From Bifidobacterium psychraerophilum (lineage in GTDB: Bacteria; Actinomycetota; Actinomycetes; Actinomycetales; Bifidobacteriaceae): a stretch of DNA of 64,000 bases. Position numbers and translations under genes: made by a program. Positions 15,344 to 59,474 of the stretch are shown here, piece by piece. Location of the stretch: contig NZ_JGZI01000008.1 in the NCBI RefSeq assembly GCF_000741705.1, positions 1-64,000 of the forward strand, written 5' to 3'. Numbering within the stretch: position 1 is the first letter of the stretch; every line of letters starts with the position of its first letter. The notes under the pieces were generated by a model that was not told the origin of the DNA, made no database searches, and worked only from the letters and a program-made list of their open reading frames with translations.

Positions 15344-15391
15344 GAATCCCCCTCTAGTTGCATAGCAAACCTCATTGTTGGTTATTTATTT

Positions 15392-52674: not shown

Positions 52675-53802
52675 TTAGTTCAGACGCAGTTCGCTCGAAG
52701 GAGCGAAGAGGTGCATCTTGGCCGGATCGATGTGGATCTTCACCGTGTCGCCAACACCAGGCAACTCGCGAGGAGACACACGAACCGTGGTCATCTTGTT
52801 CTGATCCGACATCATCGTGGACTGCTCGGCGCTGCTGTCGTCCGTAAGGATGTGGCCGTAGATGTATCCATCCGAGCCGAGATCCTCGACGTTGACGACC
52901 TTCAGCGAGAAGGCGTCCGCATCCGTTGGGGTCGCGAGCGAGGCGTCCTCGGGACGGAATCCGAGAACGATCTTGCCGTTGTCCTCCGCGGTCAGCTTGT
53001 TCACCGCGTCAGCAGGAAGGCTGATGGTGTCGTCACCGATCTTGGCCTGTCCATTGACCACAGGATGAACGTTCAGGTTCATCGAGGGGGAGCCAATGAA
53101 GCCGGCCACGAAGACGTTTGCCGGGCGATCGTACAGCTCGGTCGGGCGACCGACCTGCTGCAGCAGACCAAGCTTGATGACGGCGATGCGATCGCCCATC
53201 GTCAGGGCCTCGGTCTGATCGTGGGTAACGTACAGGGTGGTGACACCCAGCTGACGCTGCAAGGCGGCGATCTGGGTACGCGTCTGGACACGAAGCTTTG
53301 CATCCAAGTTGGAAAGCGGCTCGTCCATGAGGAATACCTTCGGCTCACGAACGATTGCGCGACCCATCGCGACGCGCTGTCGCTGCCCACCAGACAGAGC
53401 CTTCGGCTTGCGATCAAGGTACTCGGCCAAATCCAGAATCTCGGCCGCCTTCTCGACGCGCTTGCGAATCTCGTCCTTCGGGGTGCCGGCAATCTTGAGC
53501 GCGAAGCCCATGTTGTCCGCAACCGTCATATGTGGGTACAGTGCGTAGTTCTGGAAGACCATTGCGATGTCGCGGTCCTTGGGCTGCATCGTGGTGACGT
53601 CCTTGCCACCGATGAGGATACGGCCCTTGTTCACCTCTTCGAGGCCTGCAAGCATGCGAAGCGTGGTTGACTTTCCGCAGCCAGAGGGTCCGACGAGGAC
53701 AAGGAACTCGCCATCTTTGATTTCCAGATTGAGATCATCCACCGAAGGCTTATCGTTGCCCGGGTAGATACGTGTAACATGCTCGAATACCACTTCAGCC
53801 AT
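52675..53802 (-). CDS. msmK: Multi-sugar ABC transporter ATP-binding protein (MsmK/UgpC/MalK type)
   Basis: 375 residues from the ATG at 53802, which has AAAGGA eight bases upstream; three codons earlier there is another ATG. Walker A GPSGCGKST, Q-loop in VFQNYALYPHMTV, signature LSGGQRQRVAMGRAI, Walker B FLMDEPLSNLD, switch His in THDQTEALTM, then the regulatory OB-fold domain (IGSPSMNLNVHPV, GFRPEDASL). It stands alone next to a Ser/Thr kinase gene. None of the three sugar importers in this window has an ATPase, so this protein is the obvious motor for all of them, as shown for MsmK in other Gram-positives. The assignment to these partners is inferred. Confidence 0.92.
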   Translation of the reverse strand: MAEVVFEHVTRIYPGNDKPSVDDLNLEIKDGEFLVLVGPSGCGKSTTLRMLAGLEEVNKGRILIGGKDVTTMQPKDRDIAMVFQNYALYPHMTVADNMGFALKIAGTPKDEIRKRVEKAAEILDLAEYLDRKPKALSGGQRQRVAMGRAIVREPKVFLMDEPLSNLDAKLRVQTRTQIAALQRQLGVTTLYVTHDQTEALTMGDRIAVIKLGLLQQVGRPTELYDRPANVFVAGFIGSPSMNLNVHPVVNGQAKIGDDTISLPADAVNKLTAEDNGKIVLGFRPEDASLATPTDADAFSLKVVNVEDLGSDGYIYGHILTDDSSAEQSTMMSDQNKMTTVRVSPRELPGVGDTVKIHIDPAKMHLFAPSSELRLN

Positions 53803-53964
53803 GTTGTTCATCCTTTCATCGGCAGGTACGTGCCGAACGATCCGTAGTGAAGGGTTTCACTGTTTGACGTCGAGACGGTTTCGACAACTATGAGGATTCC
53901 GCGCAACATCATTTGGTTATTGGTGGTTCGCCGAAGAAAACTCTCCCTTGAGCCACGGCCAACT

Positions 53965-56223: not shown

Positions 56224-56303
56224 CTGCGAGCTGAGAGGATTCCCTAGCAGCCCATGATATGGATACACTTACATTTGTGCCGGATTCTTCGAAAGGACCG
56301 TTA

Positions 56304-57272
56304 ATGTCTCAGAACGCGAAAAAGGGCCCAAGCCAGCAGGAAAGCGGCAAACGGTCCGCCCGCGAACGGCGTAAGGCCGCGGAACTCGCTGAACAGCAAG
56401 CTCAACAGGCGAGACTTGCCAAAGAACACAAGCAACAGACGCTCATCGGTCTCATCGTGGTCATCGTGGTGGTGGCCCTGGTCGCCGTCGCGGGATTCGC
56501 CATCTGGCGCGCTACGCGACCGGTCAGCACCGCGGATGCCGAGAAGGCGTACGAGACCGTGCAATCAGTCAAAACCAAGCCCGCGGATGCCAACAGTAAG
56601 GGCGGCTTCCTGATCTCCAAGGACGGTCTGAACAAGAAGATCGCCGATGTGCCCACCGTCGAGGAATACATGGACTTCCTCTGCCCGGGATGCGGTTCCT
56701 TCAACCGCTCCGTGGACGAGTCCCTGCAGAAGATGGTCGCGGCCGGGCAGATCAACCTCGTGGTGTACCCCAACGCCTTCCTCGACAGCCTCTCCACCGA
56801 CGAATACTCGACCAGGGCCGCAAGCGCCGCTGCGTACATCGCGCAGAACGATCCCGACCATCTGCTTGCATTCATCGCGGACATGTTCGCCGAGGATTTC
56901 CAGCCAAGCGAATCAAACTACAAGGCCGTCAGCGATGAACAGATCCAACAGGTGGCGATAAAGGCCGGCGTCAGTGAATCCGTTGCCAAGAAATCCACGG
57001 ATGGCACGTACAAGACCTGGATCTCCAAGGTCTCGGCATACTCCCCCCTGCGCCAGGAACTCTGGAATGTTTCGGGCAGCAACAAGGGACAGATGACCAC
57101 GCCTACGGTGCGCATCAACGACAATTATTGGGATATGAACAGCGTCAGTTCCTCCGGTCTTGACACCGCCTCGGCGCTGCTCAAGGCTTTGGGAATCTCA
57201 TCATCGGATGTCGGTCAGGAAGGCGTCCTTCCTTCGATCGGTGCATCCGGCAAGCCGGTATCCCTGAGCTGA
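56304..57272 (+). CDS. DsbA-like thioredoxin-fold membrane protein (CPGC active site)
   Basis: 322 residues from the ATG at 56304, preceded by GAAAGGA; the longer frame adds 15 codons. The first 45 residues are Lys/Arg/Gln-rich and probably cytoplasmic with a helical or coiled character. One transmembrane helix spans about 46-68 (LIGLIVVIVVVALVAVAGFAIW). The thioredoxin-fold part outside carries the CPGC motif at 127-130 and a TTPTVRIND cis-Pro segment. Such proteins introduce or shuffle disulphides in exported proteins. It follows the kinase gene, and a strong hairpin follows it. Confidence 0.88.
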   Translation: MSQNAKKGPSQQESGKRSARERRKAAELAEQQAQQARLAKEHKQQTLIGLIVVIVVVALVAVAGFAIWRATRPVSTADAEKAYETVQSVKTKPADANSKGGFLISKDGLNKKIADVPTVEEYMDFLCPGCGSFNRSVDESLQKMVAAGQINLVVYPNAFLDSLSTDEYSTRAASAAAYIAQNDPDHLLAFIADMFAEDFQPSESNYKAVSDEQIQQVAIKAGVSESVAKKSTDGTYKTWISKVSAYSPLRQELWNVSGSNKGQMTTPTVRINDNYWDMNSVSSSGLDTASALLKALGISSSDVGQEGVLPSIGASGKPVSLS

Positions 57273-57424: not shown

Positions 57425-57498
57425 GCCTCCTTAGCTCAGCTGGCCAGAGCAGCCGCCTTGTAAGCGGCAGGTCGTCAGTTCGACTCTGACAGGAGGCT
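57425..57498 (+). tRNA. tRNA-Thr (anticodon TGT)
   Basis: 74 nt, all arms present: acceptor GCCTCCT paired with AGGAGGC, D-arm GCTC/GAGC, anticodon stem GCCGC/GCGGC with loop CTTGTAA (anticodon TGT), 5-nt variable loop, T-arm GTCAG/CTGAC with TTCGACT. Discriminator is T (U73), as in many bacterial tRNA-Thr. The CCA end is not encoded, consistent with the CCA-adding enzyme gene at 62198. A TATGCT box lies just upstream, near 57370. Confidence 0.97.
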
Positions 57499-57620
57499 CC
57501 TTTACTGTTCAGGGCTTTCTTCCCCCTCATATTCACTGAATTCCATCACGTTGCTGATGCCCCCTCCTCATCCGGATTCCATATCCCGACCCCTGATCGG
57601 CCGCATATCGCGATACGGAA

Positions 57621-57659
57621 CACACACTGTTGGATTTTATACAGTATGTGCAGTATGAT
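57621..57659 (+). promoter_or_regulatory. Promoter with overlapping inverted repeat in front of the candidate small RNA
   Basis: A TTGGAT box at 57630-57635 and TATGAT box at 57654-57659 are separated by 18 bases. Arms CACACACTGT (57621-57630) and ACAGTATGTG (57641-57650) match in nine of ten pairs with a 10-base spacer and cover the -35. CAGTATG is repeated at 57642 and 57651. This looks like a repressor-controlled promoter for the RNA that follows. Confidence 0.55.
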
Positions 57660-57662
57660 GGT

Positions 57663-57826
57663 AGATGGTTGCTGGGGAACATCACCATCTGTTTCTTGAG
57701 TAAGCAAACGGAAGCCCTTCCCCCAAACAATGGCTTCCGTAGGGATGAACCGAGCTTCCCCCAACCTGCTTGGTTCATCCTCTGGGGGGCGGGAGCATCC
57801 CCTTCAATCCCGCCCCCCCTTTTTTT
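57663..57826 (+). ncRNA. Candidate small regulatory RNA with C-rich loops
   Basis: Hairpin 1: AGATGGT/ACCATCT at 57663-57669 and 57684-57690, with a loop containing TGGGGAAC. Hairpin 2: 9-bp perfect stem at 57708-57716/57732-57740, loop containing CTTCCCCCAA. Hairpin 3: 13-bp stem with one G-U at 57743-57755/57768-57780, loop with TTCCCCCAA after a stem-closing C (same decamer as hairpin 2). Hairpin 4 is the terminator. Open frames here are short and without family similarity. Hairpin 1's loop (GGGGAA) can pair with the C-rich loops, so the fold may switch or kiss. The 5' end is uncertain: if the -10 at 57654 is right, transcription starts near 57666. An attenuator of the downstream gene is a weaker alternative because a terminator and over 200 bases separate them. 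Confidence 0.6.
57784..57826 (+). terminator. Strong intrinsic terminator of the candidate small RNA
   Basis: Perfect 11-bp arms GGGGGGCGGGA (57784-57794) and TCCCGCCCCCC (57808-57818), 13-nt loop, followed by C and seven T (57820-57826), then C and TTT. It is the most canonical intrinsic terminator in the window on the plus strand and has no protein gene upstream. A TATACT box at 57929-57934 probably starts transcription of the next gene. Confidence 0.9.
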
Positions 57827-58031
57827 CTTTACCGGGAACGCGCTCCACTTCGGTGCGCTGACAGTGGCACGGCACGTTCATCATCATGCTCCGGGGCTGT
57901 CGGGTCCAATTGTGGAAGTTTCTTCGCCTATACTCGCAGAACGTTCCGTCGAGGGCCGTGAACAGCTACAATCGCAACAGTTAGGGTGCACCGGGTAGAT
58001 CACACCGGGGCATGAGGGAGGAGCTGGGCGA

Positions 58032-59474
58032 ATGGCTAAACGCTGGACACCTGATCGTTTTGTCACACGACGACGCGTCAGGGTCGTGGCATGCGCAGCC
58101 ATCGTCGCCCTGTCGTCCATGCTGTCCTTCGGCATCGCAGCCCGCAAGGCGGTTGCTCTGACCGTGAACGGCGAGACCAGAACCGTGCAGACCTATGCGA
58201 TGAGCGTTGACCGTCTGTTGGAACAGCAGGGTGTGGATGTCAAAACCCACGATTTCGTTGATTCCTCCTCGGGCGACATGCTGACGAACCACGCAGTGGT
58301 GACGGTTCGCAGCGCCTATCAGACCACGATCAATATCGACGGCACCGAGGTCCCGTTCTGGACGGTTGCGACCAGCGCGGAGCAGCTGCTTGGTTTCTTC
58401 GAACAAAACGAACACGCGGCCGCAAAGGTCACCGTCGATATCAAGAATGTATACAACCAGCTGACCGGTGGCATGGTGATCAACCGTTCAGGGCCGGTCA
58501 CGGTGATTGCCGACGGCAAGTCTTCGGTTGCGCCTGATGGCAAGCTTCCTGCGGCATCCATACTCGACTCCAAAGGTATTGTGCTTGGCAAAAAGGATCG
58601 TGTGAGCATCGAGACCGATGGTGGTGCGACGGTGCTTCGGGTGAAGCGCGTCACGGAGAGCCAGACCACCAAAACCGTGGCCACGGCGCATGGCACGCAG
58701 ACGGTTGTGGACGAATCCCTCGCCCCCGGGGCCACTGTTATCCGGCAGGAGGGCCGGGACGGGGAGGACAGGCAGACCTACAACACCACCTTCGTCGATG
58801 GTGTGGCGGAAAGCTCCACCCTCATCAAATCGGAAACGGTCAGCGTCCCATTGGACACGATCGTGGCTGTTGGCCCTGCCGAGACCTCATCAAGCCCATC
58901 CGATGAGGACAGCAGTTCGCAATCCTCATCGCCTTCGCAGAGCGAAAGCCCGTCATCTTCGAGTTCATCCGCCACACCAAGCGCAACTTCGAGCTCCGCA
59001 AGTCCATCCGCGACTCCCAGCAAAACGGCTTCTTCAAGCACCGCCACCAGCACGCCCGCACCGACCAGGACACCGAGCAAAACCGCGACGAGCACGCCAA
59101 GCAAAAGCCAAAGCAGCTCCAGCAGCGGTTCCTCCTCCGGTTCTTCCGGTTCCTCCTCCGGCCGCTTGTGGCATCCGACCGTCGCCCAGGCTCAGACCTA
59201 TGCCGCTGGTGCCGCCGCGCAGCGTGGTTGGACCGGATCGCAGTGGACGGATCTGGTCTGGATCTGGAACAAGGAATCCGGATGGAGTTGGAGTGCCGAT
59301 AACCCCAGCTCGGATGCTTACGGCATCCCACAGGCCCTGCCGGGTTCGAAGATGGGAAGCGGCTGGCAGGATGACGGCGCTGTGCAGATAGATTGGGGAC
59401 TCGGCTATATAGCATCGCGCTATGGCAGTCCAAGCCAGGCCAAGGTCTGGTGGTTGAAATACAAGTGGTACTGA
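58032..59474 (+). CDS. Secreted Rpf-like cell-wall lytic protein with DUF348/G5 domains
   Basis: 480 residues, with GAGGGAGGAG before the ATG. A signal peptide or anchor lies at about 15-40. Then come DUF348-type repeats (ALTVNGETRTVQTYAMSVDRLL and two similar) and a G5 domain (KRVTESQTTKTVATAHGTQTV...) to about 285. A low-complexity Ser/Thr/Pro/Lys linker follows to about 375. The C-terminal domain (about 376-480) resembles transglycosylase-type peptidoglycan lytic domains: NKESGW with the likely catalytic Glu415, then YGIPQALPGSKM. This is the resuscitation-promoting-factor-like architecture of actinobacteria. It probably remodels peptidoglycan at growth resumption. It is followed by ksgA after ten bases. 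Confidence 0.88.
   Translation: MAKRWTPDRFVTRRRVRVVACAAIVALSSMLSFGIAARKAVALTVNGETRTVQTYAMSVDRLLEQQGVDVKTHDFVDSSSGDMLTNHAVVTVRSAYQTTINIDGTEVPFWTVATSAEQLLGFFEQNEHAAAKVTVDIKNVYNQLTGGMVINRSGPVTVIADGKSSVAPDGKLPAASILDSKGIVLGKKDRVSIETDGGATVLRVKRVTESQTTKTVATAHGTQTVVDESLAPGATVIRQEGRDGEDRQTYNTTFVDGVAESSTLIKSETVSVPLDTIVAVGPAETSSSPSDEDSSSQSSSPSQSESPSSSSSSATPSATSSSASPSATPSKTASSSTATSTPAPTRTPSKTATSTPSKSQSSSSSGSSSGSSGSSSGRLWHPTVAQAQTYAAGAAAQRGWTGSQWTDLVWIWNKESGWSWSADNPSSDAYGIPQALPGSKMGSGWQDDGAVQIDWGLGYIASRYGSPSQAKVWWLKYKWY

Follow-up and report, generated by a model that had tools for sequence, protein, structure and literature searches.

A very probable small RNA gene, whose family appears to be undescribed, was found in the genome of Bifidobacterium psychraerophilum, in a stretch of 64,000 nucleotides that was analysed as a whole and is referred to here as the window. 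That the element behind the tRNA-Thr gene of the window is an RNA gene is regarded as highly probable. By analogy with characterised regulators, its product is probably a trans-acting sRNA whose C-rich loops would block G-rich ribosome-binding sites, a mode of action of a known type. A preliminary description of the same DNA had proposed an undescribed small RNA with C-rich loops, and this proposal was strongly supported by family-wide conservation, covarying stems, near-invariant loops and the lack of any Rfam match.

The element lies on the plus strand, downstream of a DsbA-like thioredoxin gene (56259-57272) and a tRNA-Thr(TGT) gene (57425-57500), and is followed by a G5-domain gene (58032-59474), which we take to be rpf-like and which has Pfam matches to G5 and DUF348 only; past this gene lie ksgA and then ispE, the latter read from a GHMP-kinase match, all on the same strand. 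A promoter-like site and a terminator would delimit a transcript of about 161 nt (57666-57826), in which a conserved 5' motif, GAGTAAG, variable at its second base (57698-57704), precedes three hairpins. Hairpin 1 (57708-57740; loop CTTCCCCCAAACAAT) and hairpin 2 (57742-57781; loop TTCCCCCAACCT) both present the decamer CTTCCCCCAA, at 57717-57726 and 57755-57764, confirming the two strong hairpins with identical loops that had been noted previously. Four copies of this decamer occur in the whole genome, two of them here, and 0.11 copies of the exact decamer are expected per window under a dinucleotide model. Hairpin 3 (57784-57818; loop GCATCCCCTTCAA at 57795-57807) is the stem of an intrinsic terminator, and its 11-bp arms (57784-57794 and 57808-57818), with seven T at 57820-57826, bore out the GC-rich terminator of the preliminary description. 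It had been overlooked that the terminator loop is a third C-rich loop of the sRNA, CATCCCCTTC; the C runs in the three loops of the window copy are of five, five and four residues. The predicted fold of the sRNA region had an energy of -77.4 kcal/mol (z = -6.0), which none of 200 shuffled sequences equalled.

A further hairpin carrying GGGGAA in its loop had also been described. Its inverted repeat, GATGGT...ACCATC, was present at 57664-57689, but the predicted fold paired GGGGAAC elsewhere, and inspection by eye of the relatives listed revealed no clear counterpart of the stem. Near the expected 5' end, at 57670-57680, a G-rich segment, CTGGGGAA (RNA CUGGGGAA), is complementary to the C-rich loops, and the same place reads GTTGGGA or GTTGGAA in the nearest relatives (G009, G004, G014, G018, and G015). 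This segment might lock the loops or take part in dimer formation.

Covariation of the stems in relatives, which had been set as a check, was found. In a covariance-model alignment of 45 distinct sequences, standard pairs filled 96.3% of pair cells, as against 47-62% in slid controls, and 24 of the 29 modelled pairs had changed on both sides; the covariation score of 0.485 exceeded those of slid partners (0.06-0.11) and of shuffles (0.18). A separate alignment of 33 sequences yielded similar covariation numbers. All seven modelled pairs of hairpin 1 had changed on both sides, with pairing kept in 98.0% of cells. So had all 11 of hairpin 2, with pairing in 92.4% of cells, although one further outer pair of this hairpin held in 60% of cells only. 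For hairpin 3, five of ten modelled pairs varied on both sides and five were invariant, with 100% of cells paired. RNAalifold, applied to the MAFFT alignment A1, recovered only eight pairs, all of them in the terminator stem, since A1 has the arms of the first two hairpins out of register; the covariance-model alignment, which is biased towards the modelled structure, fixed this register. Single-sequence folds gave the same hairpins in most cases, with L069 and L078 differing at hairpin 1 and the sequence of L032 having been cut too short.

The best-conserved parts of the RNA are its apical loops. Mean identity in stem columns was 75%, and GAGUAAG and the unpaired loop cores CCCCAAC and CCCCUUC were near-invariant. 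Alignment A6 (45 distinct rows) was largely gathered by a pattern containing loop letters, and the loop invariance within it is therefore partly a product of selection by that pattern. The 24 rows of A1, which come from genus genomes and were found via the rpf-like gene or DNA similarity, are less biased; A1 omits three of the 27 genus copies (L042, L050, and L054), these being identical or nearly identical to retained rows. Six of the seven GAGTAAG columns were invariant in both alignments. The hairpin 2 loop CCCCAACC was present in 23 of the 24 rows of A1 and the hairpin 3 loop CCCCTTC in all 24. A C-rich hairpin 1 loop was seen in 6 of the 24 rows of A1 and 42 of the 45 rows of A6, being absent from the asteroides and xylocopae-like groups. 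In the asteroides group (L043 and others), inspection by eye showed hairpin 3 without a T run and, about 40 nt past it and before rpf, another terminator-like hairpin that does have a T run. As the asteroides hairpin 3 keeps its loop without a T run, CCCCUUC seems to be retained for something other than termination. On the evidence of the alignments, the sRNA structure is under selection, with the loops as its putative payload.

A conserved reading frame, which the preliminary description had named as one of the features that would speak against its proposal, was excluded. Among the 45 distinct rows, the spacing from GAGTAAG to loop 2 fell on remainders 0, 1, and 2 modulo 3 in 13, 15, and 17 rows, and that from loop 2 to loop 3 in 14, 17, and 14 rows, respectively. 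Some open frame crossed the core in 27 of the 45 rows on the plus strand and in 38 on the minus strand; as the motif spacings are scattered modulo 3, however, no single plus-strand frame is kept across the rows, and this candidate was rejected.

The distribution of the family was established by searches of increasing reach. A DNA similarity search found the RNA in 10 of 39 genomes, own genome included, and it was present in all 27 genus genomes. A covariance model built from 10 asteroides-like sequences (R1), run on 297 genomes of the order, had matches in 20, and these all belong to one family; a match in G078 (22.7 bits) was discounted, its sequence being unlike the other copies. A second model, built from 53 sequences (R2), matched 152 of the 189 family genomes when E values up to 0.01 were allowed, and 150 at E < 3e-8. 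Matches in G317 and G440 (E 0.004 and 0.006) were attributed to chance, being as weak as chance matches. The 37 family genomes that yielded no R2 match include at least four of g16, the genus group richest in matches, and many of the smaller genera. Among the matches listed, down to E 1.8e-8, only G369 occurs twice, and one strong copy per genome is the rule, although some genomes also gave additional weak matches. The two G369 copies score equally and lie about 42 kb apart on one contig (C10:10934-11068, minus strand, and 53147-53281, plus strand), representing either a duplication or an assembly artefact.

Beyond the Bifidobacteriaceae, no convincing match was found in scans of the order, of the class or, by pattern, of a whole genome collection. 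When R2 was applied to 394 genomes of the class, the only strong match was in the window's own genome. Eight others gave weak matches of 22-26 bits, which were treated as chance because the three alignments listed, the best match included, rest mainly on the GC-rich terminator; for seven of these eight loci, no Rfam match was obtained at E up to 0.5. A loop-plus-terminator pattern scan of the collection, which comprises 84,980 species by its description, returned 77 stretches. Of these, 63 lay in Bifidobacterium, Gardnerella, Bombiscardovia or unnamed Bifidobacteriaceae, and every one was confirmed by covariance model (39 + 24). The 14 other or unclassified stretches had no R1 match at E up to 1, and their best R2 match reached 11.3 bits (E 0.14).

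The promoter-like pair of the preliminary description, TTGGAT (57630-57635) and TATGAT (57654-57659) with an 18-bp spacer, was present, but its -35 element matches TTGACA at only three of six positions and the pair was missing from the promoter scan. Of 66 distinct regions upstream of GAGTAAG (one of which, L089, is an unrelated chance match), 40 contained a -10-like site, whereas in 200 mononucleotide shuffles the number of regions with such a site averaged 11.7 and reached 19 at most, which argues for a promoter belonging to the RNA itself. No -10-like site passed the test in the other 26 regions. The RNA lies close behind the tRNA in L169 and L174, among others, and co-transcription with the tRNA is possible in some species. 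Within the promoter spacer of the window copy, at 57636-57643, the element TTTATACA was observed, which occupies nearly the same position in G009, G004, G014, and G018, is kept in the last two despite their moved RNA, and is absent from G015. From this recurrence, TTTATACA is a possible operator.

The neighbourhood of the RNA is strongly conserved, with tRNA-Thr before it and rpf after it in 56 of the 63 named loci, and this linkage would also suit a role in cis. The RNA might accordingly be a leader, or attenuator, of the rpf-like gene: transcripts begun upstream would carry hairpins able to sense a signal, and hairpin 3 would gate read-through into rpf. Leaders of rpf genes are regulated in other actinobacteria, at 58 of the 63 named loci the start of rpf lies on the same strand no more than 1.5 kb downstream, and among the 27 genus genomes, all of which have an rpf-like gene, the RNA lies close upstream of it in 24. 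In G014, G015, and G018, however, the RNA lies about 3.5-4 kb from the rpf-like gene, and B. aquikefiri, B. olomucense and B. vespertilionis carry the RNA with no rpf following it or with rpf far away. In B. aquikefiri, the immediate neighbours of the RNA are crgA before it and a convergent YkcB-like gene behind it, with tRNA-Thr 3.5 kb upstream; in B. olomucense, the RNA is followed by a large putative GH3-like gene, with no rpf start within 4.4 kb; and in B. vespertilionis, rpf is set apart from the T run of the RNA by about 1.6 kb of non-rpf, apparently repeat-rich DNA. The family therefore departs from the constant adjacency to a gene expected of an rpf leader or riboswitch. Furthermore, no antiterminator pairing was evident in the predicted fold, in which hairpins 2 and 3 do not overlap, the asteroides group has its second terminator-like hairpin and T run before rpf, and the apical loops are the best-conserved parts. 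An attenuator was therefore considered unlikely.

The preferred reading is that of a trans-acting regulator. A dedicated small RNA gene of the Bifidobacteriaceae would be transcribed from its own promoter behind tRNA-Thr into an RNA of about 160 nt ending at its own terminator. Three stable hairpins would present the C-rich apical loops UUCCCCCAA, UUCCCCCAACC, and AUCCCCUUC, which would pair with G-rich mRNA segments at or near ribosome-binding sites and so block translation; the loops would be partly redundant, and a chaperone is probably not strongly needed. Transcription, mRNA pairing, repression and target identity are all inferred from the DNA. The stable stems and conserved apical C-rich loops by which trans-acting sRNAs of this kind are recognised are both present. 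Among Gram-positive bacteria, the UCCC-type sRNAs RsaE/RoxS, the csRNAs and LhrC, all of other lineages, direct short C-rich seeds against ribosome sites.

In architecture the RNA resembles sX13 of the Xanthomonadaceae, an RNA of 115 nt which has three stable stems with apical C-rich loops (4C/4C/5C) and represses mRNAs with G-rich motifs near the start, Hfq being unneeded (PMC3771888). Each of the two RNAs belongs to one bacterial family and has a conserved neighbourhood, sX13 sitting downstream of polA and the bifidobacterial RNA usually between tRNA-Thr and rpf; their lineages are unrelated, however, and the function of sX13 is experimental, whereas that of the bifidobacterial RNA is deduced. 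The actinobacterial 6C RNA B11 likewise has tandem hairpins with C-rich loops, which repress via G-rich ribosome sites and are mutually replaceable, either of the two being enough for repression of a target whose 5' UTR contains a G tract (PMC10470900). B11 differs in having two C-rich loops, compared with three plus the 5' GAGUAAG in the bifidobacterial RNA, and the covariance models do not cross-match. Ms1, a 6S-like RNA, is also an actinobacterial sRNA with conserved synteny; PMC9130861 gives the syntenic gap in Bifidobacterium as too short for Ms1, which was sought there as an RNA of 200-300 nt.

That the RNA acts in trans, as had been proposed, is supported indirectly, by the conservation of its loops rather than its stems and by its uncoupling from rpf in several species; the proposal did not, however, gain a conserved target. 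The ribosome site at 15347-15352, previously suggested as a fitting target, proved not to be special, ranking fourth among 44 window genes by loop pairing energy on crude gene calls. Among 60 own-genome loci taken from the matches to two seed patterns, 27 distinct sites stand at the head of an open frame of at least 70 codons. The strongest pairing was with the ribosome site at G000:C8:212566, to which loop 2 and one stem base would form 13 contiguous pairs (12 Watson-Crick and one G-U; -26.4 kcal/mol), in front of a sugar-binding or periplasmic-binding-protein-like gene (Pfam Peripla_BP_4); the second strongest (-25.9) was with the ribosome site of a GNAT acetyltransferase gene at C1:32151. 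The family search covered these two sites with the strongest loop-2 pairing, and conservation was checked for G000:C8:212566 only. This gene was found in 2 of the 27 genus genomes at E up to 1e-40, and in the sole close orthologue found, in G015, the site is altered to GGTAGGGGAG.

Pattern counts were also obtained. GTTGGGG..ATG occurs at 57 places in the own genome and its reversed pattern at 27, and GAAGGGGA..ATG at 42 and 9, respectively, a comparison that takes no account of ribosome sites being G-rich in general. Across 101 family genomes, GGTTGGGGGA...ATG was found at 46 places and its reversed pattern at 31. Three of the 46 are simply the RNA's own antisense strand, and of 25 places examined, 21 lie across stop-free frames of at least 200 codons. 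Neither the one orthologue comparison nor the GGTTGGGGGA...ATG pattern over the 101 family genomes revealed a conserved mRNA target. Targets may differ between species, as has been suggested for B11 in mycobacteria (PMC10470900).

The lack of a conserved mRNA target would also suit a protein-binding or sponge RNA, whose C-rich loops would titrate another RNA or a single-strand-binding protein, for instance of the cold-shock type, and three similar loops on stable stems fit multivalent binding. The closest characterised analogues, however, act by pairing with mRNA (PMC3771888, PMC10470900), and titration of this kind was judged quite improbable.

The relation of the family to known RNAs was assessed with Rfam 15. 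At the gathering score, no family was detected at the sRNA element, and only tRNA and msiK reached the cut-off in the window, the latter being a known leader RNA (RF01747, 63.8 bits) on the minus strand at 53804-53862, where it precedes an ABC ATPase-like gene. The best relaxed match, BjrC80, scored 21.8 bits against a cut-off of 80 and was rejected. Membership in, or descent from, 6C (RF01066) was suggested by the tandem hairpins with C-rich apical loops, by the occurrence of both RNAs in actinobacteria and by a weak 20.2-bit match (E 2.83) of the G009 copy, the best within the RNA family. The gathering score of 47 is unapproached, however, region 57500-57950 had no 6C match at E up to 10, and R2 found no match at E up to 10 in the true 6C loci L011-L014, which exceed the cut-off. 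By definition, a 6C RNA has two hairpins whose loops both contain at least about six C; the present RNA has three loops with runs of five, five, and four C. With the gathering score missed and no reciprocal covariance-model match, membership was rejected, and kinship with 6C in any form was considered very improbable. A second element with C-rich loops was observed in the own genome at G000:C2:191891-192051 (L015/L191), with hairpin loops TTCCCCCAACC and GCTTCCCCCCAGC, 32.7 bits against 6C (cut-off 47) and no T-run terminator seen. It occurs in 6 of the 29 genomes searched, own included, with two copies in each of G014 and G018 and relatives L192-L198, and is possibly another C-loop RNA or an intergenic structure.

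The idea that the region is merely a strong terminator with chance hairpins, which its position after the tRNA-Thr gene might suggest, can be dismissed because the stems covary family-wide and the loops are conserved.

No description of the RNA was found in the literature open to searching. Of two bifidobacterial sRNA tables consulted, that for B. breve (PMC5746004) holds housekeeping RNAs and riboswitches and that for B. animalis (PMC4338058) eleven predictions for one strain, neither with an RNA beside rpf. As no Rfam family fits, the RNA departs from 6C and no literature description was found, the family was taken to be a new one of a known kind of regulator.

Members of Bifidobacterium and Gardnerella are important inhabitants of the gut and the vagina. 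A bolder reading, which we hold to be doubtful, is that this RNA is the dominant post-transcriptional regulator of the Bifidobacteriaceae, an ancient three-loop RNA filling the role of 6C/B11 in other actinobacteria, which would act through G-rich ribosome sites on many mRNAs, including those of sugar uptake, with the G-rich 5' segment as a built-in lock. Should the trans-acting reading hold, most of the Bifidobacteriaceae would share a conserved regulatory RNA, whose defined seed loops would ease target tests, and which would provide a further, apparently independent case beside sX13 and 6C/B11 of C-rich loops directed against G-rich ribosome sites.
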